From Pleurotus djamor (taxonomy: Eukaryota; Basidiomycota; Agaricomycetes; Agaricales; Pleurotaceae): a stretch of 64,000 bases of DNA. The stretch's first letter is position 1. The number at the start of each line of letters is the position of its first letter. The stretch spans positions 1 to 64,000 of the forward strand of contig JAPEVF010000179.1 of the NCBI GenBank assembly GCA_029747585.1, in the 5' to 3' direction. Shown here in pieces: positions 15,481 to 46,700 of this stretch. Below the pieces are notes generated by a model. That model ran no database searches and was not told the DNA's origin. It was given only the letters and a program-made list of their open reading frames with translations. Both the position numbers and the translations under genes were made by a program.

Positions 15481-18400
15481 ACAACTGCCGGCATCGCTGA
15501 CGTCTACCGTGGCACCAGCCCTCAAGCTGCAAGGTCGCTCCAAGTAGACGAACACGTACTCGAGTGGTTGTGTAAACCTAGAGTACAGCAGGCGCATCGG
15601 CGGCAGGATGTGTATTGGACGACTCTGGCTAGTCCTGGAAAAACAATGCTTCGGTTACATTTGATGGCATGCAGATGAGTACACGGCAGGAGTAATAGAT
15701 TACGAGCGAGGCCGAGAAAGCCGGAGATACACATGACGCGATGAAGTTACCAGCGTGCTGGAACTAGATTTCTTGGATCGCTTGAGAATACAGCGAAAGA
15801 AAACTTCTGGAAGGAACCTCGGAGTAAGTCAATATTCAAGCCTCGAAAGCGAGGAAAATAGAATGCAGCTGACGATTTTCGGGTTTGCCCCCAGGGACCG
15901 ATTTCACCTAAAAGCTTGAGAATCCTTTCAACATCAGCGCCTCGCACCCACGTTCGACTATGCTGAGCGATGGTGTACGCTGCGTCCGAACTCGTTTGTG
16001 TGAGGGAGCCTTAGAATGTTGATGGGACCTCAACTAACGGTCGACCGCGTTCTTTGGAATTGCCTCGAACGTCTACGGGTGCTTCAGTAAAGCGGCTAAA
16101 GCTGCGCGGAGGACACGAAAAGATTAAGCTCAACATTCCAGATCAAGAGACCAAGATGGAAACCGACTTTTTTCAATTCCCTCCCGACCTATGCGGACAG
16201 ACGAACTCGGATGTCTCTTGAGCGATTAGACCGTTCGAGCTCGACGTCTCCGAGGATGTATGTTGAGGTATCGACAAAGCTGCTTCTGAGCGTTTAGTTG
16301 AGGAGAGGCTCTAGACTTGAGACTTGATTGGTCCGAGGTACCGGGGTGCGGGTAGGAGGAGATCTCGTACGTCGTAGCGTTGGGCCCGTAGGGAAGTCGG
16401 CAACAGCTGACTGTAAAGGGCAAAAGCATTATTATAAGCTTTCGAAAGGAGGAAAGCACGATACAAACTGACCTTACCAATTCTTCTGGGGCGTCGACCA
16501 AACCTACGGAGTAAGATATCTCAAGAGTGCCAGCGCAGAACGTCGTCGCCTTCTGGGATATGAGTGAGCTGTTGCTAGCGCTGCTTTTAAGACGATATCC
16601 GAGGTGGAATCTTGAGATTTCGGAGGTTCCTGTTCCGAGGGTAGGTAATGTTGAGATCGAGTCAATGGGTTCCAAGGCGGTCAAAAGTCGGCGGCACGGG
16701 AAGGTGGCCTAAGGGAGACATTAGCGTGACATTATACAGTAATACATGCAGATTCCAGAGGTAGGAGACACTCACAAATCGAATTTTTCCCGGACCTGAG
16801 CCATGATCGACCAACGGACCATCGAGAACGGTATGTTGTATCCTAGATGCGTAGCATCGTAGTCAATGACGCCTAGCCACAGTTCTGGCGGCGACTTTGA
16901 GAAGGGAAATCGAGTTTTTGGAGGTGGTGGTTCGGGGGGTACCAGCAAGGGGTCGCAGGTGCTAAGCGACGGTGGAGTACCGTTCGACTCGGGCGACTTG
17001 TGCTCCAATCCACTCTCAGCTTCTGTAAGTGAAAGTTGAACGGCCTGGTTGAGATCAAACGCAAAAGAAACGCACCATCTCGACTTGAAGCCCGTAATTG
17101 TGCCCGTCCCCAAGAATCCATCTCAGAGCCCGAACGTTTCCAATCTCAATCGTTACACGCGCTTGCCAAGAATGTAGACATGTTATCGAGGATAAACTTG
17201 GAATAGGGATGAGCAGATTTGAGACTGGACGTGCGTTCTTGGCCAGATCGTGTGGGCGACCACGAAGAGATCGGAGGAGGACCGAGAGTGAACAGAATAC
17301 TCTGGTGTCGCATCGAGGTGGTTAGCATGAGCTGAGAACGAGGACGTGTAAGTGAGTAGCCTTGGTTCATATGGATTCTGACTCACGACACCTTGCTGGT
17401 CTGAGGTAAACGGCAGCGTTGGGTCCTGACGCCCTCACCGACTCTTAAGACCGGCCTTGCTTCCTGACCATACCCACTGGGTCGAAATCAAAATCTACGG
17501 CGCCGATTTTGAGTCCGGTCGTACTAGGTAGAGGGAATCTTGAAGGCATCATGCAACGCGACGGCGACGGCCGCAGAGCCCGCAAAACCTAAAGCGAAGA
17601 GGAAGACAAGGGGCAAAAAGCTGAGAATGTATCAGGAAAACGACGGCGAGAACCTTTTAGACTCAAGCGTACCTTTTATCCGCAAGTAACCAGCCGTAGC
17701 AATATCCTAGTCTTCGTTGGCAGGTTGCTCAGTCGAGCGTCCCGGTGAGAACATGATAGTCAAGGGGTAATCCGAAAGCGAATATTTGGGCGTTCCTGAC
17801 CACAATTCAATTTCGAGCGAGCAGGACGTGTGATGTAGCCTCTGTGGGTGTCAAAAACACTGAGAGCTTGCGCATAGGATCCTACGCGGTCGGAGGGAAG
17901 GAAGACCTTCAACTTGATGCGGCGCGACACGCGTCCCCCACGTGACTAGGGTCATAGGAGCGTACTCCTTTCCCCAAAATCTCTCTCTTTCGAACCACGT
18001 CTTCTCAACGGGCAGTCCGCATAGCCATACGTGTGCTGGATCTCGCTAGTGGCTAGGCAGCTACATGTGACCCTCTGAGAGCTAGCTTGGGACGAGCTTG
18101 AAGCCTAGAACTTCGCGGTTCCAAGCTGCCAGCTTCAGCCTGCCCTTCGAGTTTGAGGGGTCCTTGGCTCCAAATTACGACGGAGCAGTAATGCTCTTGA
18201 GTCTACGCTACGGCAAGCCTCATACTATGGACAAGCTCCCAGATTTGCGTAAGTCCTGTATATGAGCTTCATATAAATAATAAAACCCAGTCCGTGCGTG
18301 ATTTCTTCCAGCGACGCCATCAGCTACAGTCTACAGATGGCTCTCTCTTTTGTTGTCGTATATGTTAGGACCCTCAAGCTACTCAATGACGCATGTCTCC

Positions 18401-28178: not shown

Positions 28179-29325
28179 TCACTTCCCACTCAATTTCACA
28201 TTGACCCACTCAATGTTTACGCCTACGCTCTCCAAGTGCCTTTGAATAAGATGGGTAGCAGATCCATCCTCAATTATCACAGCTGAGATGGCGCGCGCAC
28301 GCAGGAACTTGATCACTTTCAGATGCTCGTTACGCCGGTTACGAGGTAGGTTTGTTTGTCCGGAAAACCTATATCCGTGAAGAGTCAAACGCTCCAGGTT
28401 CGGCAGCCACATATCTGCATCAGAGCCGTCCGCGCACTTGAACAGATCAAGGGGGTGCAGACAGCAATCCTTGAGGGTGATATTCCTGACGCCGTTGAGG
28501 TAAGGCAAAAAATCCTCCCAATTGTTGATTCGGTCGAATGCTACATGCTCCAGGCCAAACAAAGGGAGGAAGGGAATGATCGCTTCGGATGAGATGCTAA
28601 TTGTCAAACAGGAATGGGATGATTCGATCGAGCCATTGGTAAACTGGATATGACACCCGCAGCCCACCGAGAAATGAGCATTTGTGAAGCCTGTCGGGGA
28701 GAAATATCTCGACAGATTCGGTAGAATTGATTCTTCTACTGAACCTGGGACGATAGAATGCGGAAATGGAAGCGAGAGGTGTACAGTAGCTGTGCTCGGA
28801 AAAGTCAAGTGGTCAAGTATCTGCACGGCCTCGAAGGAATTAATGAACAAATGAAGTTTTTTGAGGCGAGACAAGTGAACGCGAGGATATTGACGTAGCA
28901 TGGAGGCGTCGGGTGGGATGCTTGAAAGTTCGTAGAATGAGACATCCTCAACGTTGGGAGTTCCTTCAAGTATGTGAAGTGCTTGTAGGGGGGTCAATGT
29001 ATGGGGGAGTCGAAGATCTATCTGGAGAAACTGTAAGTTTTGAAGGCGAGGTATCCCAGATGGCAATGAACATGTGTCAACGGACAGCCGGCGTAGAGCA
29101 GGCATCTTGGGCCACAGGTATTCGGTTGGTATCACTTGTCTCCTATTTCCTCGAAGCGTTAGAGAGTGAAGCTGCGGCGCGCACATGCTTGAACAACGGT
29201 CCATGAGATCGCAAACCACGTCGCTGTCAAGCGTATCGAGTGAAAGTTCGATGTGACCGAGCGTCCGAGTCGACATAATCTCCGAGAAAATCTTCTTCGC
29301 AGCCAGGCCGTCTGGGGTTGGATTA
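28179..29325 (-). pseudogene. F-box protein, 3' part (leucine-rich C-terminal region), cut off by Helitron
   Basis: This is an open frame of 382 codons to the stop at 28179 with an irregular leucine-rich pattern (for example LHSLTLRGN, LRRLSVDTCSLPSGI, LERLTLHGYRFSG), as found after the F-box in many agaricomycete F-box proteins. It lacks its own F-box and N-terminus. These lie at 43331-43725 on the same strand beyond the Helitron. Joining 43331 directly to 29325 gives one uninterrupted 514-codon frame (513 residues plus stop) reading TLYNPTPDGLAAKKIF across the seam. F-box proteins usually recruit substrates to SCF ubiquitin ligases through Skp1. The substrate is unknown, and the insertion presumably abolishes the protein. 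Confidence 0.85.
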
Positions 29326-29339
29326 CCTTGCTTGCAAGG
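29326..29339 (+). repeat. Helitron left terminus with terminal palindrome
   Basis: CCTTGC-TT-GCAAGG is a perfect 6-bp hairpin at the extreme left end. Its first ten bases are the inverted complement of 43293-43302 near the right end. Such a left-terminal/right-subterminal inverted repeat is known from Helentron/Helitron2-type elements, whereas canonical Helitrons start with TC and lack it. Confidence 0.65.
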
Positions 29340-29888
29340 TCCCCCCCTACCCAAAAAAACCATATATGGTATGCGTGGGAACTGTCTTCGGCTTTAACCT
29401 CTTTCTACCTCCGTTTCACGTCGTCATCCCAACCTACCTCAGCGCCTGTCTCTTTCTCCTCATACGCCCCGCACGCTGTCCCATCCCTTCGCCTTCCTCC
29501 CTTCGCCCTCATCCCTGCCGACACGATTCCATGGGCAATGAGGTAGCTATTGCTGTGTTAGCTCCCTAAATTTGAGCATGGGCTCTCCCATTTTACGCGC
29601 ATGGGATGCCCTCTTCGCTCGATCCCCTCCGCCATTGTCTGCCAAACAAGTACAAATTTTTGTACACTCATCCAGGGGATGTACCAAGTTTTGTACATGT
29701 TTGGCCATAGTCGCCTCCCCTTTCGGTTCCAAGCACGTCCACGCTATGGGGATACGTCACTGTTCGAGTAGCCTCCCCGCCCCTTGCCAACACTTCATCA
29801 GTGCTTCGCAACATGGGCTAAACGCATAGAAAGCGTGAGCTACACCACACATTTCGATGTCACAACTAATCGCGTGCCAGGTACATCA
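29340..29888. other. Helitron left non-coding region
   Basis: No gene is visible between the left terminus and gene A. A short inverted repeat lies at about 29655-29698: GTACAAATTTTTGTAC is itself palindromic and is followed by GTACCAAGTTTTGTAC. Confidence 0.4.
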
Positions 29889-30389
29889 TTACAAGGTAGC
29901 CTTTACGGTTTTTCCATCTAACTCTGGGAAGACTGCGAACGCATGATCCAATCCCTCCGAGTCTCCCCCGGCTCCCTTGGTAAATCCAATCGCGCCCAAT
30001 AGCTTGAAAGTTAACAAATCTACAGTTCCTACGAATAGGTAGATGATGAATCCGTCGATTTCGCAAGGCGAGCTTTTCCAAATTGGACAGCCTGCGCCCG
30101 AAACTGTTGGACCGCGCACTACGTGTTAACTCTGTCACCGCGTTTTATCACCAGCGACATACCAGGCATCAAAATCTTGGTTCGCACGAAATCAGTCCAA
30201 CCTCCGACTAACATCAACTCCTTGGATTGCACTTCGCCATCGCTCATATTCTCGCTAGCGTGGAGATACTCCACGCCCGGAGCTGGATGATACCGAGTAG
30301 CTGGATCTGAGTGATGATCAATGATGAACCGTACGTTTACCATTCAGGCAGGCTAACGTACCCATGACAATGTGGAATCGCTGAGCCAT
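29889..30389 (-). CDS. Helitron accessory gene A, 133 aa, unrecognised family
   Basis: Three exons (30389-30362, 30306-30163, 30118-29889) give a 134-codon frame including the stop. Both introns (30361-30307 and 30162-30119) have GTACGT/GTATGT donors and AG acceptors. The protein starts MAQRFHIVM. Core motifs are LVGGWTDFVRTKILM and CEIDGFIIYLFVGTVD, followed by LLGAIGFTKG. The 128-aa gene B at 42725-43228 is homologous: it shares GGW-x(3)-(L/V)(I/V), IDS/G-(F/Y)-x-(I/V)-YL-x-V, and G-x-x-(F/Y)-x-KG. Introns fall after coding nucleotides 28 and 172 here, against 25 and 172 in B, both phase 1. A TATAAA on the minus strand at 30444-30449 lies about 55 bp upstream. No transmembrane segment or catalytic motif was recognised, and the function is unknown. 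Confidence 0.7.
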
Positions 30390-30861
30390 GATACTTTGGG
30401 ATGAAGAAGATGATGAAGTACCTCCCCATAGAGTTGGGTTGCCTTTATATGTACCTCAATCATCTATTAGTGCTAATGCCACAAACCTGAGATTACGGCC
30501 CCATCCGCATCTCCCGCCGCGCATGACGCAACCACCCGCGCGGATACACAACAATCAATCTATCACATCGTGACCAACTCCAACGCCAGTCCCCCGACAC
30601 CCGCTCAAGCGCCATGTCCGTGTCGATTGCCGACGAGTGGATACCAACCCTATCCTCCGCTTGGCCACTTGCGCATCCACTACAGCATGCTTCCGGACAC
30701 TCAGTGTATGCCTGATGCTGCCGCCTACATCGGACGCTGCCAATCGTCAAGCGCTCCATCCATACATGGTCACTCACACCTGCTCCCGCACACTCAGTGC
30801 GCGTTTGACCTCACTGCCAATCGCAAAGCGCTCCATCCATGCTTGGTCCGAGGGTAGCGTG
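30390..30861. repeat. Non-coding stretch with an imperfect direct repeat
   Basis: Two imperfect copies of about 65-75 bp lie at roughly 30692-30767 and 30785-30848. Each begins CCGGACACTCAGTG or CCGCACACTCAGTG and ends AGCGCTCCATCCAT followed by GGTC. A 9-bp indel separates their middles. I see no gene here. Confidence 0.5.
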
Positions 30862-31419
30862 TCAATTCATTGGGTACGCCGTAACATTACATGAGATGAA
30901 ATAATTTATTGAAGGGGTGAGCTCTCTCTGGTATGACCAGACTACGCATGTGGCTTCAGATGGAGTAGCACCATTGAGAAAAATAGCGACTTGCCTTTTA
31001 GGACGTGTCGTCCCTGGAAATGGGGACTCTATGCGGTTTACTCCTTGGATCACCCTTGCGTACCCTCCTGCCATCACAAAAGCCTACAACGTTTAGAGAA
31101 TAGCCTTCCGATGACATTCCAATGGACAACATACAATATGATCATCAATGTCCACCAGTCGCACTCTCGCCATCATTAGGCATAATGTTCCTGGTTGGAA
31201 TTTGGTGTACACATCTGCTGGTCGGATGTACTTCCCTTTCTCGTCATAATATTCGAGCTGTTTTAATCTCAAGGTTGTGCCCGAATAGTCGACCGAGTCG
31301 TAGTCTGAGAGAGTTCGAGGCGAATAAGTGGCGAATGGAACTGAGCTACTCGTCGAAAATTTGTGCGGCATATCCAGTGAAAAAGCAGATACACCTTGTC
31401 GAGGGAACAAGACGTTCAA
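30862..31419 (-). CDS. Helitron-borne gene, ~170 aa, unrecognised
   Basis: Two exons joined by a 48-bp intron (about 31137-31090; GTATGT donor, TTGTAG acceptor) read from MNVLFPRQG to the stop at 30862. The middle (KGKYIRPADVYTKFQPGTL then CLMMARVRLVDID) alternates hydrophobic and polar residues like a small beta-barrel. It is loosely similar in layout to the C-terminal part of the 313-aa gene at 34283-35388 (DPATLDTSLPGALVEVHFTL). I infer possible common ancestry but cannot align it reliably. An upstream exon may exist. The function is unknown. Confidence 0.5.
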
Positions 31420-31426
31420 TTCCTTT

Positions 31427-31990
31427 TTATAGAGTCAATGATCTCTGTATGCCATAAGTGAGGAATATGCGCACCGCAGGTTTACGCAACTGGGCCAATG
31501 TACGCCGCCTTAACTCTCGTAAGTTTGCAATTTGTCGATCAAACAGCCTTCCTGCCTCCGGTAACTCTGGTCCAGGTCGACGTAGAACCACACGATCATA
31601 TACATAGCTCTCCAGATCTAAGACTTCGGTGGACTGTCGTTGCAAAGAGCATTTCAGTCAGTTGACGACTCATGGCTAGGGGTGTCCAATACTGACCTCC
31701 AGTTGACCACGCGACCGCATAGTACTCGTCCGAGCCACCGACCCCAGTATCACAAATTCCCACTCTTTCTCCAATGGACCAGCGAAAAACCAGGCTCCTT
31801 CTTCGTTGGCTATAGGTAGACATTGGATGTCGGAGAGATGAACACGGGACAGGGTTTCTATATCTTTGAAATCATGCAGATACCTCTCTGCTAGTTGGTC
31901 GGCAGCCGCGACAGTCGCCATGAATATGTTGTGTGTATTGGGAATACCCCGTCTCCCGACCCTTTCTGGCTTCTTGTAGTCCCTGTCCAC
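31427..31990 (-). CDS. Helitron-borne gene, unrecognised
   Basis: One exon down to a GTCAGT donor after RSRGQLE (near 31697) joins, through an intron ending CGACAG near 31633, to STEVLDLESYVYDRVVL and a charged helical tail (LRELRRRTLAQLRKPAVRI), with the stop at 31427. The upstream part (DQLAERYLHDFKDIETLSRV) looks helical. The true start is unclear: MDRDYKK at 31990 or MATVAAA at 31921. It could be the 3' part of the gene to its right (32036-33720) or an independent gene. No domain was recognised. Confidence 0.4.
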
Positions 31991-32035
31991 GTCGGCGGCT
32001 CACTCATCGTCTGATGTCAGATCACATACATATCG

Positions 32036-33720
32036 TCATTCCGGAAGAATGCTCCTCTTCGAGGTGCGGTTCGTGACCACCAGGGTTTCGGCTAGCATGA
32101 GGGGCCGCCTGATCTTGGTGTTTTCCTTAGCACTGGATTTGTAGCATACCACAGTTGTGGTGTCAACACAGCTCCCTCCCTGACGCTTGACGTGTCCAAT
32201 GCTATCCTTTGCGTCGCTGTCACGTAGTCTGTAGTATTGATCCAACTCGTTGCAATATATATGACTAGAATGTTAATAAGATCCAAAGCACGCCTTGTGT
32301 GTGCGAAACCTTCCACAATGGCTGTTCTCGCATTTGCCACCCAGCTGCCATTGAACGTCCCCGTCAAACCAAGTGCATCTTTTCGCTACAAGCGACCTTC
32401 CCGCATTGCACCCTCCCCAGTAGATGAGGTCAATAGTGGAATCTTCGGTAGTCGACCGTATGAGATGAGGGCAGGCAATGCCGCACGCACTCTTGAGGCC
32501 ATGTCCACGGAAATAGGAGGAGACACCCACTGCATCGTAGCGATCTGGAGACCCAAGAAGCAATGAGACTGCATTTCGGTCCAGAGTGATATCGGAGTAC
32601 ACACAGCCAAGGTATGTGGCTGAGAGCATGGTCATCGCCGCTGAAGATCGCTCTTGTAGTATTGGGAACACTGCCTGCGCCGTTTGGCTCTCATGTAGGT
32701 TGATCCATCTGTCCTCCCCTCCCTGAGTATATGTTAGTGCATGAGTATAAAAGACATTCGGCTGACATGACGCTCACAATTATCCCTTTAAACTTGAAAT
32801 GAGGCTCACCACCCACGCTTGTCTCCTCGACCGTTTGAAAGATGTATCCGTGTGTAGCCAGCCAATTCGTCATAGTGGGNCCGCTGCCCAAAGGGAAGCG
32901 CAATACGGAGGATCGAGGTTGGATACCAGTGGCGATACAAGACACTTAAGGCAGCTTCGGCAAATATGATGCCATTTGTCTCCTCCAATGCTGCCGTAAA
33001 CGCATCCCGGATCACAGCCCCGGGGAAGAACTGTTCCAAGATATTTGTGAACACATTAACATATCTGTCGTGGATGACCTTAGCAAATTGTGTTGACACG
33101 CGCGACAGGGATGCTATTTCGTGTAGGTCACACCAGTTCAACAGGTATTGGATACAGTCGTCGTCGAGCGGAATGTTCTGTAGTATGGGAATGCATTCGA
33201 GACGTGGGGGATTGACTGTGGCTTGCTGGCGAAGTCGGTTGATCAAAGTCGCAGAGCTAACACCTTGCGTCAGCATCCTAAAGCTTAAGTTAGACTTGGT
33301 TTAGGGCGAAGATACCACGTACTGTGCAATCAACAACTGGAAGATCTTCATCTCGCCAAAGGTAAAGTCTTCCAGTCGCCCCGCGCGTTCAATCATCACT
33401 GTTATTCCTCCATACCAGGCCTCGATGTAGCGTCCATCAGGCCCTTCTTTATCCAGCAACGCAGCTTGGATGAATTGACCCAGTGCATCGTTTCGTCCAT
33501 TGATATAATGTTGCTCAGTAAACGTAGCCACAAATGTGAAATCGTGGGGTTCGGGTGGCTGGATGCGTGCGGTATATGGAGTTTGGTCCTTGATATACGC
33601 AGTGGCTTTCTTGAATACGATATAGGCTCTACATTAGATATGCGAGGTGGCTCAAATCTGATAACCCCACCTGTGAGCAAACTACTGTCTCCGTAATTAC
33701 CTGTCCAGGTTTGGTGGGAC
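32036..33720 (-). CDS. Helitron-borne multi-exon gene, nucleotidyltransferase-like fold suspected
   Basis: One exon reads TFVATFTEQHYINGRND to FGEMKIFQLLIAQ. A 45-bp intron (about 33312-33268) leads to MLTQGVSSATLINRLRQQ and YLLNWCDLHEIASLSRVS. The part that follows (GIIFAEAALSVLYRHWYPT, DLRIALPFG-like, WLATHGYIF) has the order of an agaricomycete family in which an F-box-like segment precedes a 'GSxAL..DLDxxxP..GY' region, from memory of that family. An N at 32880 shifts the frame inside this motif. Later exons (CGIACPHLIRSTTED, the Cys/Arg-rich tail ending ILPE) run to 32036. Exon borders in the 3' half are not resolved. It may be captured host sequence rather than a transposition gene. Confidence 0.4.
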
Positions 33721-33734
33721 AAACCACTCCAGTG

Positions 33735-34282
33735 CGTAGCTCAAGCGGAGCGATTCGGGCACAAGTCTGTCGCTCGGATATAGGAAATATCAAGCAAAGA
33801 AGGGAAGGCATGGTGGATTTTGTCACGTATGTTGATTCTAAATGGCTGGCTGAGATACGCTATGAGAGAAGCACAATCCTAGAATCAGCTTGAGCTTGAG
33901 CTCCTGACTTGATGACGTTCTAATCCTTAGGGATGTGTATAGGAGAGTGTATAGGAGAGCATCCTTTCGGTCACATGCTGCTGGACAACAAGGTCACGCT
34001 CTCATAGTGTTTTTCTCACCCACTTTTATTGGAGCCTATACGATGTCGACTACTTTGCTATGGCTCGTCTCATCAATACTTATACCCTACGCCACTGCCT
34101 ATTCTACACGGCCTTCGATACTGTCTTGCCTTTATCGCCTGAAGGGATATGGGCGAGTCAACGCGGTGTTCAGAGTGGACAGAGCAACCTTACCTTCATG
34201 GGACGCATGACCGGATTGAGATGTTCCCTCGCCTTTATCCATCACTTCACCTGGACATCGTACGCAATGTGAGTATATGGTA
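33735..34282. other. Stretch without a supportable gene
   Basis: It lies between two minus-strand Helitron genes. Short frames occur on both strands (for example 33935-34210 plus) but none continues convincingly or shows a domain. A GAGTGTATAGGAGAG-type short duplication occurs near 33935-33960. Confidence 0.35.
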
Positions 34283-35388
34283 CTATAATGAAAAACACGA
34301 GAATTTACCTATTTTTGGGCGTTTGGTAGGGCTCTCGGCCTCGCCTACTCGAGCGCGTTTACCCATCCGGTGCATGGCGATCTCAATGGGAGAGTTTGGG
34401 ATCGACGGCTTAGGTCTTTGGATGCCCCTGCTGGCTTTGCGAGAGGGGGATGCTTCGTTTGAACGGGGCTGCAATATGATGATCTGGCTCACGTCCGCAT
34501 TGAAAGAATCGGTGTTTTGCTTCGTCAGGGCCCAGTGGCGAAGAGTGAAGTGGACCTCGACCAGGGCGCCAGGAAGACTTGTGTCAAGAGTCGCTGGGTC
34601 AACACGAACATCGTTGAAGTCGAAAACATGCAACGGTTCGAAAACCATGGCCTCCGCCACCGCCATGAACTCGCTTCGATAGGAAGACGAGACGGGCCAA
34701 TTGGCAGCTGAAGGATAGTATGCAGCGGCACCTAGGCATTTGGTTATTAGATGACAACTTTAACTCTTAGCCAAGTGCAACCTACCTGGCTGGTCCTCGA
34801 TTTCGTCCTCAGGCAAGAGTTCGCAATCATCATCATCTTCCTTTATCAAGGTTAGCATGGGAGATACTGAGTCTGATACGGAAGTTACTCACCTTCTTTC
34901 GAAACAGCGAATGCCCAAGACGTATAGTCGTATTCGGGGCTTCCGTCGCGAGAAGGTGCTTACGGTTACGCCCTTGTGCACCGCTTTCCTGCAAGCGGCG
35001 CAGGAGTTGAACTCCAGCCAGATAGTCTCGTTCAAAGCCCGGATCCGCGGGGGCTTCGATGGAGAAAGACAGCTTGGCTTTGGCCATATTCTCGTAGTCG
35101 GGATTGTAGTTACCCAGGGGCTTCAGACTGCAAGACCCTCGAGTCACTGTGCCGACCATGATGAGCACCGCGGGTTCATACGCTGGATCGGCCTTCGAGT
35201 CGGCCACCAAGATCTGGCCGCCCTTGAAGTCTTTCCAGAACAACCGGTCGATGAGACGCGCGGTAGCAACATAGGTGGTCAAACGGCTCATCGCGGTACG
35301 ATGGGCGGTGAGATCAATTCTGTGTGACGCGACAGGGTCAGTGATTGTTTCACACAATGAGATGGGATGTTACTGACGTGTTTGCCAT
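34283..35388 (-). CDS. Helitron accessory gene, 313 aa, candidate nucleic-acid-binding protein
   Basis: Four exons (35388-35378, 35319-34893, 34840-34786, 34731-34283) total 942 nt, exactly 314 codons. The introns have GTCAGT, GTGAGT and GTAGGT donors. The N-terminal half is strand-rich (SRLTTYVATARLIDRLFW, AVLIMVGTVTRGSCSLK). An acidic linker EDDDDCELLPEDE follows. The C-terminal half reads FEPLHVFDFNDVRVDPATLD, LPGALVEVHFTLRHWAL, SFNADVSQIIIL, then a basic tail (GKRARVG, TKRPKIGK) resembling a bipartite nuclear signal. It is divergently paired with the Rep/helicase. Some Helitrons encode RPA-like OB-fold ssDNA-binding proteins, and the layout is compatible with that role, but this is inference. 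The last intron/stop is the least certain part. Confidence 0.65.
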
Positions 35389-35883
35389 TGAAGGGTAGGT
35401 CGTTGTATGAGCAGAAGAGTGTGGACTTGGACGGACACTAGGACGGTAGGCTATCCTGGAGTCAACACGGTGTGTGTCTCCTCTTTTTATACACTGGCCG
35501 CTACCTATCTAGAACGCATTGTGTCGGCTTGCAGATCCTCACCCCTTTCATCCGGCTGGCCTGGACACCGGTATTGGTCACCAGTGCCTGCTAAGCTTTC
35601 AAACCGCTACTGCGAAGACTGATCTATTGGTGTTGAATGATCAGATCGGGTCATACCCTCCTAACGTTTTTTTTTGGGGGCTCCTAGAAGAGATTTTCAC
35701 GGACGGTCTCGTTCTCGATTGTCTTAGAGCCTCCTGTCATGGTTTTCTGGACACATTTGCGATCTGACCGACTATATACTGATCGTGTCAGGCACCGCAG
35801 GCTCCTTTCTGTGGTCCCCGGCGTGTCAGAGCCGGTAAGTGGATGCATCTCCTCTTGCTCTCGATCTGACATTGGACTGTATC
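35389..35883. promoter_or_regulatory. Divergent promoter region of the Helitron
   Basis: This ~495-bp region lies between the start codons of the 313-aa gene (minus) and the Rep/helicase (plus). A TATAAAAA box on the minus strand (35484-35491) lies about 100 bp before the minus start. A TATATA on the plus strand (35773-35778) lies about 105 bp before the Rep ATG at 35884. The region may co-regulate the two genes. Confidence 0.5.
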
Positions 35884-38800
35884 ATGGCAGACAGCCTCGC
35901 GACTTCAAGCTCTGACGAAGACTTCTTTCGGTGTCTGACACTGGCTCAGTTCAGCTCAGTGTTACATGATGCAGGAGTGTCTACGAAACGCTCGGAGGAT
36001 CGATCATTTTTCCTCCTCCTTAGGCGTTGGAGACAACAGAGCGAGGACACGCAAGATTTAGCAAAAGCGTTAGCCATGTTGCTGCCGACTGCACGTACAA
36101 AGTGAGTTTCAACACAAATACCTGTGGTTGCCATCCTCATTGGGCTTGTAGACTTCGATTTGTCCCGGCAACCATTCCCGTGGACTTGCCGCCCTTTATA
36201 CAGGAGGGTCTGCGCTTATTGAACGGTGTGACGACAGAACGTGTCTTGCATGGTATTCGGTCACTCAGAATCCCAGTCCCATGTGCGGAACGTCGAAATC
36301 GTGATGCACTGATTCGTCTAGTGATGGGACTTACCGAAGAGCGTATGACGGCGTTTTTGGGGGCAGTGGCTGAAATCAAAGTGCCAGCACCAAAACGGTA
36401 AGTTGTATCATTGCTTGATACCCTGTTTTCCACAATAACCTCAAATTATTATGTTCTAGGAAGGCGGAGACTGATAGTTACGAAGTGAATGCGAATTTGG
36501 GTGAAGAGCGTCTTGGGGAATTGTGAGTGAGGGATTGTGTATCCATGATTGTACGACTCATCTGTTTCTAGCAGTTCCAGAGGAGTACTACTTGTTCGTC
36601 CTTTTAAACGGCAACGTCTTGATGTGGAGATCTTCAATGATGTTCTGAATGGTCCTTTCTTATCGTGTATCTCGTCAGAGACCAATGATAACGCCACTGC
36701 CGCTTTCATCAAATCGACCTCCTCTGCTGCCTTGGCATCCGATGTTTGTGCCTCGTGCTCTCGACGTCTCAACAAAACTCTTCTTTCGGTACATCCTATC
36801 CAATCGATCCCTAATCGCGAACGACTAGCTCCGTTTGAGCCCCATCCAGCGCAGCGTTTGACACAAGGCATGTTGCTATACGAACCTGCACTCCGTGTCT
36901 TAAATGACCAACAAGTTGCTGTTCTCTGTGCTGACTGTTTGCACGATTTGGAGGCGAATCGGACACCCAAGTTGGGTCTATCTAATGGCCTTTGGTTAGG
37001 CGAGGTTCCCGACGTATTGAAGGTACTAACATTGGCTGAGCGGCTACTCGTATCGCCTTACTTTCCAGCGGCATACGTCGTGAAACTTTTTCCCAAGTCC
37101 CACGGTGCTTACCTCCAAGAAGAGCAATTAAATGCCGGCATGCGGGGGAATGTCACATCCTATCCCTTAGATCAGAAGGGCATCAATGACCTCGTTACGG
37201 GTAATACCTACCCACGACCACTATCTATCTTAAGCGCAACGATCGGCATCACCTTTATTGGCTTCAATGGGAAACCTGCCCGGTCTTTGCCTCAGATGTT
37301 CCGCGTTTCGCGAGATCGTGTCGCCGCCGCTCTATCATGGCTTCAAGAGAATAATCCCTTCTTTGCCAATGCTCGTGTAGATGCCACTGCCCTGGAAAGC
37401 CTCCCTTTCGACGAAGTCCCAATGGAGATATTACAGGGAGCAAGGATAGCCGCATGCGACGCTGATCTTGAACACGAGAATGGTGGTTATGTTCCTAATG
37501 ATTTTGAGGCTGACGATGTTCATTTGCTTCCTTCTGAAGGTAGTTCCACATCATTTATTTCCGCTATCAGTATTCACTCTGCCGTTTGCAGTGACACCCT
37601 TCGGAGAAGAGCGAACTCCCAATTTTTCCGATGAGATTTCCTCGTTCATTCCCTCCGGTGAGTGCAAACACTGTGGCGTGTGCACTGGTACTAACGCTGG
37701 CACACATATAGATGTGCACCATGCCGATACAGAATCTCACGACAACAATCGGCCAGCTGTTTCAGTAGCCCCATCTGTAATCCCTGTGATGGGCCACGGC
37801 ATGGTAGACGTGGGAGCTACCGCGGTCACTGATTCTGAGCTGTTTTCAGCAGCACTGGCAAACACTGGTGACCGTTTGTTTGATGAAGCTCAGGTGAAAC
37901 ATGGGAGCAATCCAGTAAACGAGTATCCACGCGTTCGTGACGGGGTTCGTTTCACAGGCGGCGCAGACTCCCCAAATCACCTCCTAGGGTGCTTTGTAGT
38001 CCTCTTTCCCTATGGCATNGGGGGGGTTGGAAGTCAACCGTCCTGTCCGGTTGTCGTATGATGCCCAGGTCACCAGATGTCTGCAACTAGATGATCCTCG
38101 ATTCCGAGCCGATATGCATTTTATCTTTCAGACATTCGGTGTCATCGTCAAGCGACAAGTTTGCGCATCTGCTGCGCTACAGATCAAACGCTCTTCATAT
38201 CGTCGCAACGCCGACCTTCTGGGGAAACTGACCCCCGAGGACTTATGGGAGGCTAGCAAGGAGGAGGCTAATCATATGCCCTTCTCGAATCCGGCGATCA
38301 AAGAATTGCGGTCGCATCTCACATCAACACGCGCTCGAGTAATGGGTACAGACGAGCATCGTCGTTCGGTCCGTTCGCAGATCTGGGGGTGCACTGTGAT
38401 GAATGGGCCGCCTTCACTTTGGGTCACCATCAACCCGAGCGATACCCACGATCCAGTTGCACAATTGCTTTGCGGAGAACACATTGACTTGGATAACTTT
38501 GATCAGAGGTCGAAACCGGATGCTTTTGAGCGTTCGGTGAATATTGCCTCAAATCCCATGGCGGCAGCTCAATTTTTCCATCACACCGTCCGTTGTATTC
38601 TAAAGGACTTATTTGGAATCAGCACTGCAAAATCGGCGGGAAAGGGAGGGCGAGGTCGCATTCAACGAAGTTCGGGGATTCTGGGGCGTATACAGGCATA
38701 TATTGGAACAGTTGAGGCGCAGGGCCGTGGAACATTGCACTTACATCTCTTGCTCTGGTTAGAGGGTGCACCATCTGCGCAGGTCATGTCTTACATGTTG

Positions 38801-41800
38801 CAGCATTCTGCATTTCGAGAGAAAGTGGTGACTTTCATTGACGGCACTATCCATGCACATCTCCCTGGGCATACTGGGGAATCAATCAAGGCCATTCCTC
38901 GCGATACTACATGCTCTTGGTCTCGACCGCCTGACCCTGCTTCATCCGATTACATGGCCAACAAGACGGCCCGTCTGCAACGCCTGGTACGCAATTTGCA
39001 ATTACATTCTTGCGAAGGAAGAGGGTGCTTGCGTTGGGTGAACGGAGAGCGTAGGTGTAAACGACGAGCGCCATTTCCCACAGCGCCGAGAACGTGGGTG
39101 GATTCTAATGGAGACTGGGGTGCTACTCGTCTCAATGATCGTGTGGTGGGATTCAATCCAACTCTCCTGCTCAATGCGCGGTGTAATCATGACATCAAGC
39201 TGCTCACCAATGCGCATAACACCGGCGCTCTGGCTTGGTACATCACCCATTACGCAACGAAAAAGCAACAGGCCTCTAACAATGCTTCTGCTGTGCTTGC
39301 CAAGCGACTGGCCTACCATGTCGAGGAAGAGCGTCGGCGGCCTGACTTGGATGTTCTCAATAAACGCTTGCTCCAGCGATGCACCAATGCCTTGAACCGA
39401 GAGCAGGAGTTCAGCGCACCGGAGGTGATCAGCCTGCTTATGGGTTGGGGAGATCGATACATCTCTCATCATTATGTTCCCATTTATTTGGACACGATGC
39501 GCTTTGCCTTGCGACGAGTGTTCACTAGCCTTTATGATAAATCGTACGTGGCAATGGTCAACATCCGTGAGCCTTAAGCACTGATTACTACTTTGTTTAG
39601 CCATAACGACGCTCAAGGGAGGGCGGACGTCGAAAGTGCTGCTACAAATACCGGAGAGGTAAACAGTTGAATCTTTGCATTCGCTTGGACTTTTAACTGA
39701 TTGTGCGTTGTATTGCTGGTGTGATAGTATCAGCGAATGAAGCTATCCTCGCTGGACTCTCAGGTGGTGCTGACCGATCAGGTGGACGAATATATGTGCC
39801 GCGGCATGGCCCTGGACGACTACTCATACCTGGACTTCTGGCTGGATACCTACCATCGTCCTCCTTCTGACTTGAAAGCCTCCTCTCCTTTGACTGTGCC
39901 CTACCTGCCTGGGTTTTCAAAGACTGGCGTACGTCAGATTAGGTTACCTGGGCACGAAACAATGCCGCAACTCATTGGACAATGGTTTCCTCGACGCGAT
40001 GGTGGTGGATCTTCGGCCGTTTATGCGGCCATGATTTTAATGTTCCTGAAACCATGGCGAACACTGGGGGACTTGGTTACGGGTCACGACTGTTTTGAGG
40101 ACGCCTTGTCCAATTTTGAGTCAAACATGTCTGATCGGGACAAACGAATCATTCAAAATATCGACTACTTCTACTTGAGTAGTGACGCTGCTAACCGGGA
40201 ACGGGAAGCTGGTCATGGTGTCGCATTTGGAGTCTCTGCGGCAGATCTTCTAGATATCGATAACGAGGATGACTTCGACCTGCCAATTTTGGGAGACGAC
40301 GACGTGTCTGACGAGGCGATCGAGAAGGCATACAACGAGAGATACGGCGATGAGGATACTGCTTATGCCGCTGAGGCTTTGTCAATTGCTCACAATGCTG
40401 GTTTTTTCGGTGATGGGCTGATCGAAGGGGTGACGTGGGACGCTCCAGCAACGGCGGCGAAGCATAGTGACATACCTACTTTTGACACTTGGGCGGCCGA
40501 TCTCAAAGCTTACATCAAAAATCAAGAGTCGACACCGGGCGATGAGTCCACAGGCGCGATTGACCATGGTGATGAGCAAGAGGATGTACCGTTTCTGGGT
40601 CCTTGGGATGGTCTGCCTCATGTTGATGACAAGATGCCAAGTGATCGTTGCCTCGAAGCAATGGGCATGGATCCTTCTTATCTCAACGAAGAGCAGAGAC
40701 GTGCTTATGACTTGATCAAGGAACACCTCATTCAGACTGTCTCTAACGTGGTGAAACCAAATCAGCTGCTCATGGTTGTGCATGGTCCCGGAGGCACTGG
40801 GAAGTCTGCTCTTATGGAGGAGGTGACAAAGCTGTTCTCCGTAGCGGGCTGCGCGTCTTGGTTGGCAAAGACAGCCACTTCGGGAGTGGCAGCCAGCCGG
40901 ATTGGGGGTCAAACTCTTCATTCGTGGGCAGGGATTCCGGGTCGAGGTCAAGGGACAGCAAAGGCAGCGGAATCTATTGAGGACTTGGTGAAGTCGGGCC
41001 GTTCAACTAAGCGGGCGAAAAATATGATGAAGGCCAGATACCTCGTCATTGATGAGTATTCAATGATGAGCCATACGCTCCTGAATAACTTATCCGATGT
41101 GAGTATAAATACCTTTCTCTGTTGGCCTCACTAACCAATGATTGTGTTGACGTGCGTAGATCTGTTGCAAGACAAAGTGCGGCCTTGGAAGTTGCGACTT
41201 GGGTCCTTTTGGTGGACTGAACGTCATTCTTCTGGGTGACTTACACCAATTTCCCCCAATTGATTCACGCTCTGCTCTTTATGAAGGTATCTACCGCGAT
41301 GGAACACGTGCACCAGGTCGTCATCTATACGAACAGTTCACCACTGTAGTGTCCCTCACACGGCAGATGCGCGTAACAGATGAGGCCTGGAGCAGATTGC
41401 TGTCTCGTGTACGCGATGGAAATGGAACGGCTGCAGATATTGCAATGTGCCGCGACATCACATTGAGTGATCCGAGTTGCCGGGCAACCGACTTTGATGA
41501 TGAAACTTGGAGGGATGCGATTCTCGTAACGCCAAGGCATAGCGTGAAGGATGCTTGGAATACTGCAGCCATCCTGCGACATGCTCAAACAACTGGGCAT
41601 CTAATTTACGACTGCCCCGCCGAAGACACTGTCGGACCTTCCCGTACCCCATTGTCCAGACGTGATAGGCTGAAAGTAGCGGGCATGAAAGCCAAAGCTA
41701 CAGGAAGCTTGGCGACAAAGTGTACTATTTCGGTGGGTATGAAGGCTATGGTGACGTTGAACGTGTCCACGGAAGCAGACTTGGCTAATGGGAGTCGCGG

Positions 41801-42344
41801 AACTGTGGTTGGTATTGTCTTGGACCCGCGCGACACTGACGCAGTGGCGATCAATGGCCATGTGAAACTGTCTTACCCGCCCGCATGTGTCTACCTCAAG
41901 CTCGATGGCTCAACGGAGAGAATTTTTGCGGGGTTGGACGTGGGTGTTGTGCCCGTCTCCCCTTCAGAAGCTCGTTTCGATCTCGATCCCAAAGGCAGGA
42001 AGGTTCCAATACGACGTCGCCAGGTGCCGATAGTGCCAGCTTATGCTTTTACCGATTACAAGAGTCAAGGTCAAACAATTGCAGCCGTCTTTATTGATTT
42101 AAAGCAACCTCCGAGGAAGCGTCTGACTGCCTTTAATGCATACGTGGCGTTGTCTCGTTCACATGGCCGCAACACAATAAGGTTACTACGGGATTTCGAC
42201 CATACCTTGCTGCAAACTCCGCCTTCCATTGCATTAATCGAGGATGATGCACGACTCTCAAAGCTGAACAGAATGACTAAAGACGCGCTGGCAGAGCGAC
42301 TGGCTGTTGAACAAGGGTGGAACGTGGCTATGGAGTGCATGTAA
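35884..42344 (+). CDS. Helitron Rep/PIF1 helicase, about 2001 aa
   Basis: This rolling-circle transposase nicks and rejoins DNA and unwinds it. Nine exons: 35884-36101, 36152-36397, 36460-36522, 36572-37539, 37592-37657, 37712-39543, 39601-39658, 39728-41098, 41160-42344. With one G removed after the N at 38019 they total 2002 codons including the stop. An in-frame ATG at 35839 is an alternative start. The N-terminal part has CxxC pairs (CASCSRR, CADC) and the NGLWLGEVPDVL region typical of the Helitron-linked DUF6570. Next comes the Helitron_like_N region, with the HUH motif in GRGTLHLHLLLWL (about residue 862) and the two-Tyr motif WYITHYATKK (about 1028). The helicase has Walker A GPGGTGKSAL (about 1502), DEYSM, LLGDLHQFPPI, TDYKSQGQT and YVALSRS. 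All catalytic residues I looked for are present, so the element may be autonomous. Confidence 0.9.
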
Positions 42345-42724
42345 TTGCTGTACTATGGATGTGATCTGGTGTCCTGTGTCTCGATAGACTGTCCCATCTT
42401 AATATACAAACTTTCCAGTGTCAGCCTGGTGAACCCCTGCGGCGATCAATGCTGGTGCCACTACCACGGTGGTGCGCGATTTGCCCTTGAGTAATGACAT
42501 GGAGTGAGATCACGGATGTCTGCCTACGAAGGAGAGGGAGCGATTGGCGTCATTGTAGGAATGGTGCCCGTCATGGCGGGTGGTCATTGACTGTGGGGCG
42601 GTGACGTAATGCGGATATGTGAAGTGATCCCATATTTATATCCCTCAAGGTGATGCTTCAGAGGACGGGGACCTCGTTCAAGCTTTCAAGTGTCAACTTT
42701 CAAATAAGCATCATCAGTGGAAAT
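42345..42724. promoter_or_regulatory. Intergenic region upstream of Helitron gene B
   Basis: It holds the 3' end of the Rep/helicase transcript and the promoter of gene B. A TATTTATA (42633-42640) lies about 90 bp before the ATG at 42725. No coding potential is seen. Confidence 0.4.
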
Positions 42725-43228
42725 ATGAATAGCTGGATTTTCCGTGTCGGTATGTACTTCGGTACTCGCTGTCAATCTTCGTGGCTTACCGTCATTCGGA
42801 TGGCCAAGGCTGCGAGTGTCTCAATGTGGCAGACGAGAAAACCGAGTATGAGTTTGCAGGGGCTACTACTCTGTCAATGGTGGATTACAAGGCCTTGAAT
42901 GACCTATTCAAAGGGGGCTGGCGAGCTCTGATCAAGGGAAAGGACCTCATCGCAGGTGTGTGGTATCTTGTAACACATGGAAAGGAGGGTGTAGGATGCT
43001 AACTTCAAAACAGTTAAGGATACCGTTCTCCCTACATGGAAGACGCCCGTGATGCAAATCGACTCGTACGAAGTTTACTTGTACGTCGCCCAGTTGGATT
43101 GCGGGCGATTACGTCTGGTGGGTGGGGTGGGATATGAAAAGGGTGTTGCTCAACGTCGTGACGTGTTGGATGGCATCATGAAGGATATCTCCGTCGATAA
43201 GGACAACGAATTTCTCATTTGTGCATGA
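42725..43228 (+). CDS. Helitron accessory gene B, 128 aa, homologue of gene A
   Basis: Three exons (42725-42749, 42809-42955, 43014-43228) give 129 codons including the stop. The introns, 42750-42808 and 42956-43013, have GTATGT and GTGTGT donors. The protein starts MNSWIFRVG. It shares with gene A (29889-30389) the motifs GGWRALIKGKDLIAV, QIDSYEVYLYVAQLD and VGGVGYEKG. The second intron falls after coding nucleotide 172 in both genes, and both introns are phase 1 in both. Gene B lies about 100 bp inside the right end of the Helitron and points toward it, mirroring gene A at the left end. No known domain was recognised. Confidence 0.7.
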
Positions 43229-43292
43229 TAGTAGCACATGATTGTTCTTAGATTATTTAACTGGGATAGAAGGCACAGTCGTGTGGGCCGTC

Positions 43293-43330
43293 GCAAGCAA
43301 GGTACCCTAAGCGCCAACGGCGGTCGCTAG
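43293..43330 (+). repeat. Helitron right terminus: subterminal inverted repeat, hairpin and CTAG
   Basis: GCAAGCAAGG (43293-43302) is the inverted complement of the left-terminal ten bases. A hairpin follows: AGCGCC (43310-43315) pairs with GG-T-CGCT (43322-43328) with one bulged T. The element ends CTAG (43327-43330) and the host continues with T. A 3' hairpin plus CTRR is the standard Helitron terminator structure, although here the stem overlaps the CTAG rather than lying some ten bases before it. Confidence 0.75.
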
Positions 43331-43725
43331 TAGAGAGTAACTGCCAGAGCCAAAGTGGCTGCCTTTGACCGTTGTAAGAGCACACCGGCCATCTCGTTGG
43401 CTTTCTTGCCCGGACCCACATCGATGTATGACCACAATGAAGGTGTATTCAAGCTGATCCTCCGCCATCGACGGCAAACTGCAGTTACACGCAGCCAGCT
43501 CATATCAGGTCCAATTGATCCAAACAGTCCAGAGAATGTTTCTCTTGAGTCGTCTCGTCTGGATACAAAGACCATCGCAAGTATCTCGTCTGGGAGACGA
43601 AAGATACAAGGGGGAGAGGAGTGGTGGGTTTTGGGACGGCGGGTGGTGGACTTGCGTTTCTTGATGCGATGGGCACCTTGAGCGTTTTTGGAGCATTTCA
43701 GATCCTGAATGTGGGGCTTGTTCAT
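43331..43725 (-). pseudogene. F-box protein, 5' part (F-box), cut off by Helitron
   Basis: The ATG at 43725 is the first in frame, because a TAA lies 9 bases upstream. A basic N-terminus is followed by the F-box-like core (FRLPDEILAMVFV, then VTAVCRRWRRISLNTPSLW) and the typical continuation LLQRSKAATLALAVTLY. The frame reaches the Helitron CTAG, which creates a TAG stop only two codons past the boundary. The missing leucine-rich C-terminus is at 28179-29325. As it stands the allele encodes only about 132 residues with an F-box and no substrate-binding part, which might still be translated. Confidence 0.85.
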
Positions 43726-46700
43726 GTGTGCGGATTAAAATGAGTACAACGGGGATCATACCATTTTCACAAAGCAACGAATATGGTGCCAGATGGAAGA
43801 ACAAAGGACTCAACACGGGGCTAAAGGCTTTGTGGCCTTGGACAGGCGTCGACGATGAGAGAGAGGAAAGGATCTTCGGAATATCCCGAGAGCGGTCTAG
43901 ATCCATGTTACTTCCTCGGTCACGACAAGTCACTCGTCACACTTGATCCTTCTCATCAACATCGACGCCGACCAGGCTACGACCAATGACGGGGAAGGCT
44001 CAGTTGTCCGCTCTGAGGCCAAAGTGCTTCAGTGGATGTGTCTACTCGCCTCCTCTCGCCTACGTTTTGCGAGAAACGAAACTTTTTATGCCGGAGGCAA
44101 CCTCTTCGACCACCCACGATCGTAACTCATTGCAGGAAGGCTCAGAGTAGGCCGCCAATTGGGGAGAGTGTTGTCGATGAATATGGTGTTGACTAGCTGT
44201 ACTCTACTCGTTCTCGAGACTTAAGTACTCATCGATTATCGCTGATTGTCATGCTTCAACTGCTTCCAGAAGTCGTCTTAGACTTTCTCGCATGACAGTT
44301 TACGATGCGGTCGCTTGTGCGTGGTTCGCCTTCAACTACAGCTCAAGTAAGGATTGACATGGCGCGTCAAAGATTCCCGTTTCTATCCCCGCCTCGTCTA
44401 ACACGTTTCTGTACTTAGATCTAGCCTCTGCTCGCGTTGCAAAACCCATCTACCCTACACGCATCCCAGGTTTCCCTCGTCTCCAAATGCCTTTGCCACA
44501 TTCCATCACTCAAGCTTTCTTCTATACTTTGCTCAAAAACGCTGGGAAACCACTTGCTTACTCCACAGTCTCGCATCATCCACTCGGTACGGAGAACCTG
44601 CAACATTCGTCAAGGGAAATCGGATACACAGCGGGAAAACTGGAAGCGATACTCGATACGGTGCCTCTCATTCATTTGCAGGTATGTCTACCCGGCTAAT
44701 CATTGGCGCCAGTATCTCCTGAGGCTGCTTGCCCATTACCCAACCATTCCCTTGCTCTTCGTCTCCCCACAAAGACGATTCTGTCATCTCTTGCCCATGG
44801 TTGGCTACCTCCGAGAACTAGCCTTCGAGCCTCAACGTTATGCGCTAGAGCAGTTCTCATACTACGTGGCTATCGTACAAGCAGATCAGGACGGTCAGCA
44901 CACGCGTCGAGGAGAAAATCAGTTTTGCTGGTATGGGGACTACAACAAAGGAATATAGTGAGTTTCGCTCCCATTCTTTCACTTCGAATATTCCATATTC
45001 AATGAATGCTACCTGGCAGAAATGCGCAGCGAGCCTTTGAGCGTCATCGGACGGTTCAAAGCGTCTTAATTCCTCCCCTTCCCCATCATACCCCCGGAAC
45101 AGCCCCCTCCGAAAACCAGCGTTCCACGCGTAACGATACCCGCTAGACCATCTCCGACGATACGTCAAGCTGATCTCCAAAGATGGGAATGAACGCTTTC
45201 GTTACTATCAAGTTATTCGAGGTCGTAGGGGTGGGATCAGTGGGCTGGTTGGGAACTCAAAAATCGTGAGTTTTCTTCGATAATTTGTGCGCTTGCTCGA
45301 ATTCAACAGACTGATGCATGTCATAGCCACCGTCAGCCGATGTGTCGGAAGCATGGGCTTGGTTAGAGCTGAGACCAGCCTCCCTCACGCCTTAACCGTC
45401 ACCCCGGATGGCCAACCTCTGAAATTCCCTCTTTGAGCGACAACTATGGGTGAAGGACAATCGCTAGTATGTCTTCATGAAGCTGCGCAATTTCGGTGGC
45501 AATCCACCCGGCCATTCTCAAGATATTTAAGGTGGTTGGTCAAGCTCGGCTTCGTGCAAAATTGAAATTCGTTCATCTCTTCAGTCCTTGATCGTTTGGA
45601 ATGACTTCTTGTGCCCCGTAGACACGCGTAGCTGAGTCGTTGAGGCGACCACGGTAGTTCGAAGCAACGTCCATAGTGCCTACCCTTTCCGCGTCTCCCG
45701 AAGCAATAACCCTCGAAACGAGCCTCCGCGCAACGGCTTCATCGTACGTCTGAGTCTTTCAGTACGATGTCGACTAAATGTCCTGACTATGGTCCCTTCA
45801 GCGTTTTTCGGTCATGCTTCCTTATCTGACGTCGTGGGTGGCCCGCACCTAAAGAGAGGAGTCCGAAATTCGTGAGTTTACTTGAATGCTCTCGTTTTAA
45901 ATGGGTAATAATCGACTTGCTACGCCCTCTAGAGTAGGTGCATCGCCGTGCTCTCTTCTGATCTTCCCCATGTTTCATCCTCAAAGCACCAATCGGGCTG
46001 ATGAGTAGTAGCGACGACGTTCTCCTTTGTCGCTCTTTCGCGTCTGGTTTCTTATGTATCCACTCTGTTTTCTCCGCTCTCTTTACCGGCACAGGTTCAA
46101 CGTTTGATATCGTCGGTATCCTCTCTTGCTGGCTTCTTTCACTTCCCATCTTGCTACACGTCCGTCTGTGTCCCTTCTACAACATTCTGACGATCGTCAG
46201 ACACACCGACATCAGGCCGTAGAATATTCTTGTCGTTTCTTCCACCACGCCTCTTGCAACTACCTACCCACCCCCTTATCGTCTTCCTTTGCGCACGGAT
46301 CCCTCTTGCGTCGCATTATAGAGCACTATGTGTCTATGTCTCATAACAGCTCTTACTTCCTGTTTCTCTCTAGGACCACCAGGTTAATGACTAAATGCAC
46401 GGTTTAGGACAAGCGCAGAGACTCAAGTTGTCCATTCGTTCAAGCCAGGGTACAGTACGCTCTACGCTGATTTGGGGCGGTGCCCTTCTCCTTGACAGCT
46501 TTCCAAACGTGTGCTCCAGCGCCGGGAGGCCGAGCTGGGGGTATGATGAACGCTGGTTGGAACATCATCAATTCTCTATCCATATCTAGATCCTAGAAAC
46601 CCTGTGCCCTATCCAAAGCTTGTTCGGGGTCCCTTAAATGGCGAAGGAGTGGCTTTCACTGCTCCAACCCCAATTCCATTCTCCACGTTGTATCTGATTT

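Follow-up and report, generated by a model that had tools for sequence, protein, structure and literature searches.

Extra genes carried by Helitrons are usually regarded as accidental captures. A Helitron of the fungus Pleurotus djamor, located in the window (the whole stretch of DNA analysed here, positions 1 to 64,000 of contig C506), raises the question of whether this view holds for two small genes, A and B, that lie close to its ends. We searched the 55.9-Mb genome for relatives of both genes and compared their structure, sequence divergence and surroundings. The results suggest that A and B are probably diverged members of an orphan, Helitron-linked family of accessory genes that is under selection. 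This degree of confidence excludes the molecular mechanism, which is weighed separately below. The three features concerned are:

29323..43330, plus strand: complete Helitron of 14,008 bp, insertion site A|T, no target duplication
29889..30389, minus strand: gene A, exons 30389-30362, 30306-30163 and 30103-29889, 387-nucleotide (nt) coding sequence, 128 amino acids
42725..43228, plus strand: gene B, exons 42725-42749, 42809-42955 and 43014-43228, 387-nt coding sequence, 128 amino acids

The initial annotation of this locus had described A and B as homologous genes for proteins of ~130 residues, each with three exons and phase-1 introns, the second of which follows coding nt 172 in both. This gene structure is borne out by the predicted exons (28 + 144 nt precede intron 2 in A, 25 + 147 nt in B) and by the public P. 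djamor gene models, which encode identical proteins (A, P0004, ONZ45_g7542; B, P0001, ONZ45_g7545). Intron 2 of gene A has two candidate acceptors. The 172-nt, 128-residue model requires the later of them, with exon 3 starting at 30103; the alternative yields 133 residues, and the 128-residue form is favoured by the relatives and by the public annotation. The two proteins are only 20% identical and share the motifs GGWTDFVRTKILMP (A) and GGWRALIKGKDLIA (B), followed by EIDGFIIYLFVG...GAIGFTKG and QIDSYEVYLYVA...GGVGYEKG, respectively. In whole-genome searches the A query recovered B at E 9.5e-5 and the B query recovered A at E 7.2e-4. A hidden Markov model (HMM) of six B-type proteins, from which the A-type proteins were left out, detected A at E 4.2e-14 and the two A-type proteins of contig C114, C114A and C114B, at 8.5e-20 and 3.7e-15. 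None of 9000 shuffled A-type sequences was among the 19 rows that this model returned with E <= 10. Genes A and B are thus homologous, with a similarity beyond chance, and the motifs that had been proposed as shared are present.

Whole-genome protein searches were performed with five queries, A and B at E 0.001 and three other members at E 0.1. They identified nine intact members: A and B on C506, two on C114 and one each on C703, C889, C626, C661 and C25. Each query recovered a subset of these loci, and none of the five turned up an intact locus elsewhere. All nine genes contain two phase-1 introns of 50-76 nt, with an exon 2 of 144-153 nt and an exon 3 of 212-227 nt, at protein identities that range from 20 to 70%. 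In an unrooted tree, an A-type group (A, C114A and C114B; support 0.995) stands apart from the others, and B is joined with the C25 and C626 members (0.85), inside the family. The word TATAAA lies 60 nt upstream of the gene A start codon, and no TATA-like word was found upstream of gene B by the pattern used. Such words precede seven of the nine family genes; the pattern was loose and had no control, and we set this observation aside as evidence. Outside the assembly, a 560-bp ENA contig (P0006) contains a frame that matches the C703 gene with 85% identity across 39% of the query and extends into the counterpart of C703 intron 2.

The divergence among members is concentrated at third codon positions. 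Third-position identity was 0.35 for C506B/C25, 0.35 for C506B/C626 and 0.41 for C506A/C114A, and the identity of the same three pairs at positions 1 and 2 was 0.63-0.77. Non-synonymous divergence (dN) between the C25 and C626 genes was 0.177 and synonymous divergence (dS) about 1.0 (YN00); dS was saturated or undefined for most pairs, and C25/C626, for which alone YN00 gave a value, is the single pair far enough from saturation to yield a reliable dN/dS. Together, the codon positions and the retention of gene structure at low identity support long-term purifying selection as the probable regime under which the family has been kept. Random capture of gene fragments was also considered and is ruled out by the shared gene structure and the codon-position pattern.

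Linkage of the family to Helitrons was assessed against the other genes of the window element:

36549..42344, plus strand: RepHel transposase gene, several open pieces with DUF6570, Helitron_like_N (Rep) and PIF1-like helicase; exon borders provisional
34283..35369, minus strand: gene X, two open pieces (34283-34759 and 34833-35369), no Pfam match
31093..33633, minus strand: gene Y, several open pieces, F-box in one (32806-33300, E 2.2e-4)

At four of the seven loci (C506, C114, C703 and C889), Rep and helicase sequences were matched close by. The distance to a Rep or PIF1 match is at most 15 kb at these four, a zone that takes in 1.7% of the genome; the probability of at least four of seven is 2.6e-6, a value that treats the loci as independent and is too small since C506 and C114 carry related elements. 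With the window locus excluded, the probability of at least three of six is 8.8e-5. The 1.7% is itself generous, because the PIF1 list may contain non-Helitron helicases. The clustering of homologues with Helitron Rep genes, which had been put forward as a check, is therefore seen in this genome. Two further loci have weaker traces: at C626 a helicase remnant lies 2.5 kb from the gene (frames 16025-17587, match E 2e-4; gene 13063-13567), and C661 carries a piece related to gene Y (E 4.9e-9). This brings the loci with a Helitron trace to six of seven. The Rep proteins of the carriers fall into two groups, C506/C114 (76% identical) and C703/C889 (46%), with 24-29% identity between groups. The Rep of C651 is 50-52% identical to the C506/C114 group, and pieces of X and Y are present there with no family member in 20 kb.

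The initial annotation had also seen a mirror-image pair in A and B. Both genes do point outward near the termini, at distances within the 0.1-0.6 kb it had given: the end of A is 566 bp from the 5' terminus and that of B 102 bp from the 3' terminus, both inside the element. The closest relative of the window Helitron is a 19.6-kb element on C114 (62352 to 42712; Rep 76% identical). Here the sister of A is internal, between X and Y, on the RepHel strand and directed toward RepHel, and the gene at the 3' end is A-type and points inward, with its start 0.18 kb from the terminus. Because neither the position of the A homologue nor the direction of the two genes is kept on C114, the mirror image belongs to this copy rather than to the system, and the C114 arrangement rules out the pair as a conserved architecture. 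As the nearest kin of B are on C25 and C626 and the C114 3'-end gene is A-type, the pair was apparently assembled from two subfamilies that were already separate. Seven genes are linked to RepHel or to a remnant of it. Five of them (A, B and those on C703, C889 and C626) face away from it and the two C114 genes face it; by position, four lie downstream of it and three upstream. What does repeat is a placement on the 3' side, seen for B and C114B and for the C703 and C626 genes, which are downstream of the helicase. The earlier conclusion that the two genes had long co-existed as functional parts of the element thus stands in part. Homology, selection, Helitron linkage and the absence of random capture uphold it; the idea that the mirror pair itself is old or functional is not supported, given the different order on C114.

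Decayed members are found in short non-autonomous Helitrons of 0.78-0.85 kb, which are 84-98% identical:

C483:82243-83020, short non-autonomous Helitron with decayed B
C763:23496-24284, short non-autonomous Helitron with decayed B
C813:35357-36183, short non-autonomous Helitron with decayed B
C1361:345-1198, short non-autonomous Helitron with decayed B

In each, a decayed B is enclosed by ~100 bp of the 5' end and by the 3' end, and the B-matching stretch (intron included) has three or four stops. These stops illustrate how the gene decays once it is no longer maintained. The C813 and C1361 copies were found by genome search. Those on C483 and C763 came to light only when short elements whose ends match were read; a third such element, on C1219, contained no decayed member.

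Several observations weigh against a Helitron-linked accessory family under selection. The short copies are among them: at least four keep a decayed B, which argues against a need for the product in cis. Because the genome searches score only top-ranking candidates, and two of the four decayed copies (C483 and C763) escaped them, further family members may exist. At C25, no match to RepHel, X or Y pieces was detected in the 20 kb around the gene. A family member was found on only four of the 23 contigs with a Helitron_like_N match, and the gene is therefore not needed for Helitron movement generally. Matching ends on both sides are known for only four of the nine intact genes, and an empty site was tested for the window element only. 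No scan gave convincing termini for C703, C889, C651, C661, C626 or C25; the scans looked for 12-nt inverted repeats (C703, C889, C651 and C605), for CTRR hairpins (not C651) and for a hairpin with an asymmetric repeat. Finally, the structure models described below are of low confidence and yield no predicted function. Taken with the two RepHel lineages that carry the gene, the small number of Helitron contigs with a member indicates a gene that is optional yet common to lineages, a distribution that fits either exchange or old ancestry with loss.

The termini scans also returned a chance-like pair on C25 and a chance-like hairpin on C626, which were dismissed as termini, and two more hairpins inside the C114 element. 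On C661, the 10-nt word GCAAGCAAGG occurs 164 nt after the stop; it was not counted, as there is no CTAG there and the word is also found away from ends on C813. The 10-nt word scan missed the ends of the C114 element, which match less exactly. Separately, a 2-kb stretch of C25 (3960-5929) is 70% identical to C605:18070-20000, and C605 also carries RepHel; this was not counted as a Helitron trace.

The nine proteins have masses of 13.8-15.7 kDa and an isoelectric point of 4.9-5.6 in eight cases and 7.0 in the ninth. The mostly acidic character speaks against direct DNA binding. We infer that these soluble-looking proteins of ~130 residues may have a role in binding protein rather than DNA. Neither A nor B matched Pfam singly, and one of the nine members had a weak hit, to an outer-membrane barrel model (E 0.02). 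None of the nine matched NCBIfam, and the Pfam and NCBIfam scans revealed no similarity to known DNA-binding families. Searching the PDB by sequence returned a single match (E 0.8), dismissed as chance. There was no match among phage records, and the three pattern matches in IMG/VR included no relatives. Among 5.8 billion annotated proteins, searched at E limits of 10, 1 and 10 for those sharing five-residue words, only P. djamor proteins and P0006 were recovered.

Structure prediction had been suggested as a way to identify the fold. The AlphaFold2 models of B and A had a mean predicted local distance difference test score (pLDDT) of 62.3 and 62.6; in these low-confidence models, both built from the same five sequences, strands and helices follow one another in nearly the same order. 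With the B model, Foldseek returned no PDB match at E <= 0.001 (best 0.071, an archaeal-virus anti-CRISPR protein) and no viral-model match at that threshold (best 0.052). The VIA-align rows for the A and B models (EGO and TRAPP subunits), which bear on a candidate longin/roadblock-like fold, were below an informative level. A function read from fold matches was dismissed, given that no match was significant and the models are of low confidence.

The molecular role can be addressed by analogy. Phage anti-defence genes are small, acidic orphans that occur as diverged copies within an element, as single-gene units and in unrelated elements. The family has these traits in common with them, which makes counter-silencing our first guess: a trans-acting function against silencing or defence is the likeliest of the mechanisms considered, although we hold it tentatively. 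Under such a mechanism, the protein would work in trans, by binding protein rather than DNA, and would blunt a step of host silencing or genome defence so that the element persists. In the preferred reading of the family as a whole, selection probably operates at the level of the element and the gene is probably swapped between Helitrons as a cassette, with its place near the 3' end easing exchange. It is a more doubtful proposition that A and B are the founding members of a fungal transposon counter-defence family. Its proteins, small, mostly acidic and diverging, would occur in pairs in some elements and neutralise a silencing factor of the host, and unrelated Helitron lineages would exchange the genes as single-gene cassettes, like phage anti-defence genes. 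The second choice is a partner of RepHel, a mechanism we consider rather unlikely. In this reading A and B would be transposition proteins that act with RepHel at the element ends, one near each terminus. The 0.1-0.6 kb separating the window genes from the termini, the repeated 3'-end placement (B, C114B, C703 and C626) and purifying selection would all suit such proteins. The A homologue far inside the C114 element would not, nor would the presence of a member on so few Helitron_like_N contigs, the acidic composition or the lack of similarity to a known DNA-binding family, and we regard this explanation as unlikely.

Other explanations place the origin of the genes elsewhere. Helitrons capture genes (PMC4289320, PMC5148889), and intron-bearing genes suit capture from host DNA. 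The family could then be a host gene captured repeatedly, with its true home and function in the host, as the well-kept C25 member, with no Helitron trace in the surrounding 20 kb, would suggest. However, the short-word protein searches found no homologue in another named organism, Helitron traces accompany six of the seven loci and, in the unrooted tree, the C25 gene nests with C626 and B inside the family. Capture from the host is thus improbable. Hitch-hiking DNA without benefit, retained by lying between the ends, would account for the four non-autonomous copies that consist of ends and a decayed B. Such DNA would hardly keep open frames and splice sites in nine members at 20-70% identity with third positions near random; this reading, already disfavoured by the codon-position pattern, is very improbable. 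An orphan accessory family kept by selection remains the preferred interpretation, and the other relatives in the genome, mostly in or beside Helitrons, make the genes look like passenger equipment.

How new such a family would be depends on the comparison with genes already described. In P. ostreatus, the HELPO1 Helitrons are described as having captured the domain-less genes capA, capA2 and capB, and also capC, downstream of RepHel (PMC4289320). There, capA is reported to be P. ostreatus-specific, capA2 is 45% similar to capA, and capC occurs in 1.5-kb non-autonomous copies (PMC4289320). By these descriptions the cap genes are like B: they lack domains, lie downstream of RepHel in a Helitron of the same genus, and one is kept in short non-autonomous copies. 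Gene A, upstream of RepHel, is unlike them. In Fusarium oxysporum, the element FoHeli3 is described as having an extra domain-less open reading frame, found only in Helitrons, upstream of and opposite to the transposase (PMC5148889). This layout, again compared by description, is better matched by gene X than by A or B. The earlier statement that no Helitron gene of this kind had been described was therefore too strong.

A and B are of the same kind as the cap genes and possibly of the same family, a comparison made by description only. Outright identity of the family with capA/capA2 of HELPO1.1, which would make it already described, seems quite unlikely to us. As described, the position of capA, its lack of domains, its species restriction and the 45% similarity of capA2 recall B, and capC in its 1.5-kb copies recalls the short copies with decayed B. 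Against this, P. ostreatus proteins were absent from our protein searches, which require shared five-residue words. The available description of the cap genes reports no family that has its introns in common, two diverged copies in one element and carriers in two RepHel lineages. What appears to be new is that the family is defined: its introns are conserved, selection on it has been measured, one element holds two diverged copies, and its carriers belong to two RepHel lineages.

Shared structure, purifying selection and presence in two RepHel lineages suggest that fungal Helitrons may own accessory genes that pay their way. This makes it testable whether accessory genes aid transposition or fight silencing, and Pleurotus, with an element of defined ends, offers a system for such tests.

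The boundaries of the window element and the host gene that it interrupts are as follows:

29323..29343, plus strand: 5' terminus, hairpin ACCTTGCTTGCAAGGT with a 6-7 bp stem, first arm recurring inverted near the 3' end
43293..43330, plus strand: 3' terminus, inverted copy GCAAGCAAGGTA, then CGCC-AAC-GGCG and CTAG; T next
43327..43734, minus strand: N-terminal half of host F-box gene, open frame, host part from 43331, F-box-like at E 1.4e-8
28179..29322, minus strand: C-terminal half of host F-box gene, weakly leucine-rich repeat (LRR)-like

The element is recognised as a Helitron by its predicted Rep and PIF1-like helicase, insertion between A and T, and CTRR-type 3' end (CTAG). Helitron_like_N (E 1.4e-31) and PIF1 (E 2.6e-16) match separate, adjacent open pieces on the same strand, and the Rep motifs HxH and YxxxY are present (GTLHLHLLL and YITHYATKK). 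The edges read TTACCTTGCTTGC... on the 5' side and ...GCAAGCAAGGTACCC...GGCGGTCGCTAG, followed by T, on the 3' side. The 5' end at 29323, TTACCTTGCTTGCAAGGT, starts with TT and forms a hairpin, with a DNA fold z of -2.51 (2 of 200 shuffles equally good). The 3' end contains CGCC-AAC-GGCG, whose single-strand fold is no better than that of shuffled sequences (z 0.35), 122 of 200 being equally good. A 12-nt asymmetric terminal inverted repeat joins the two ends, TACCTTGCTTGC at the 5' end and GCAAGCAAGGTA beginning 38 nt before the 3' end. The scan for a hairpin with an asymmetric repeat around the element returned this pair only, listed at two offsets 1 base apart. Allowing up to 2 mismatches, the 5' end has 45 genome-wide matches compared to 1 for the control, and the 3' end 31 compared to 0.

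An asymmetric terminal inverted repeat is given as the layout of Helitron2-type elements in PMC5148889, and a CTAG-type 3' end with insertion between A and T is stated for canonical Helitrons (PMC5148889) and for HELPO1 (PMC4289320). By these accounts, the window element resembles Helitron2-type elements in its 12-nt asymmetric inverted repeat and 5' hairpin. In contrast, its CTAG 3' end and insertion between A and T are those of canonical Helitrons and HELPO1, and its start is TT.

When the 130-bp flanks are joined, they form one continuous frame, whose alignment with an uninterrupted F-box/LRR paralogue on C333 spans 197 nt (74%). The Helitron has thus split a host F-box/LRR gene, with the C333 paralogue as a paralogous empty site; additional paralogues of the split gene are present in the genome.

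The larger piece of gene X occurs in four genomic places (C506, C114, C651 and C471, the last at E 5e-6) and is upstream of and opposite to RepHel in all four; gene X is tied to RepHel more tightly than A or B. The pieces of gene Y probably form a single gene, and related pieces are found on C114, C651, C889 and C661, with a single piece matched on the last three. An 11-kb stretch without a Rep match, C1301:3058-14043, is bounded by the same ends as the window Helitron.

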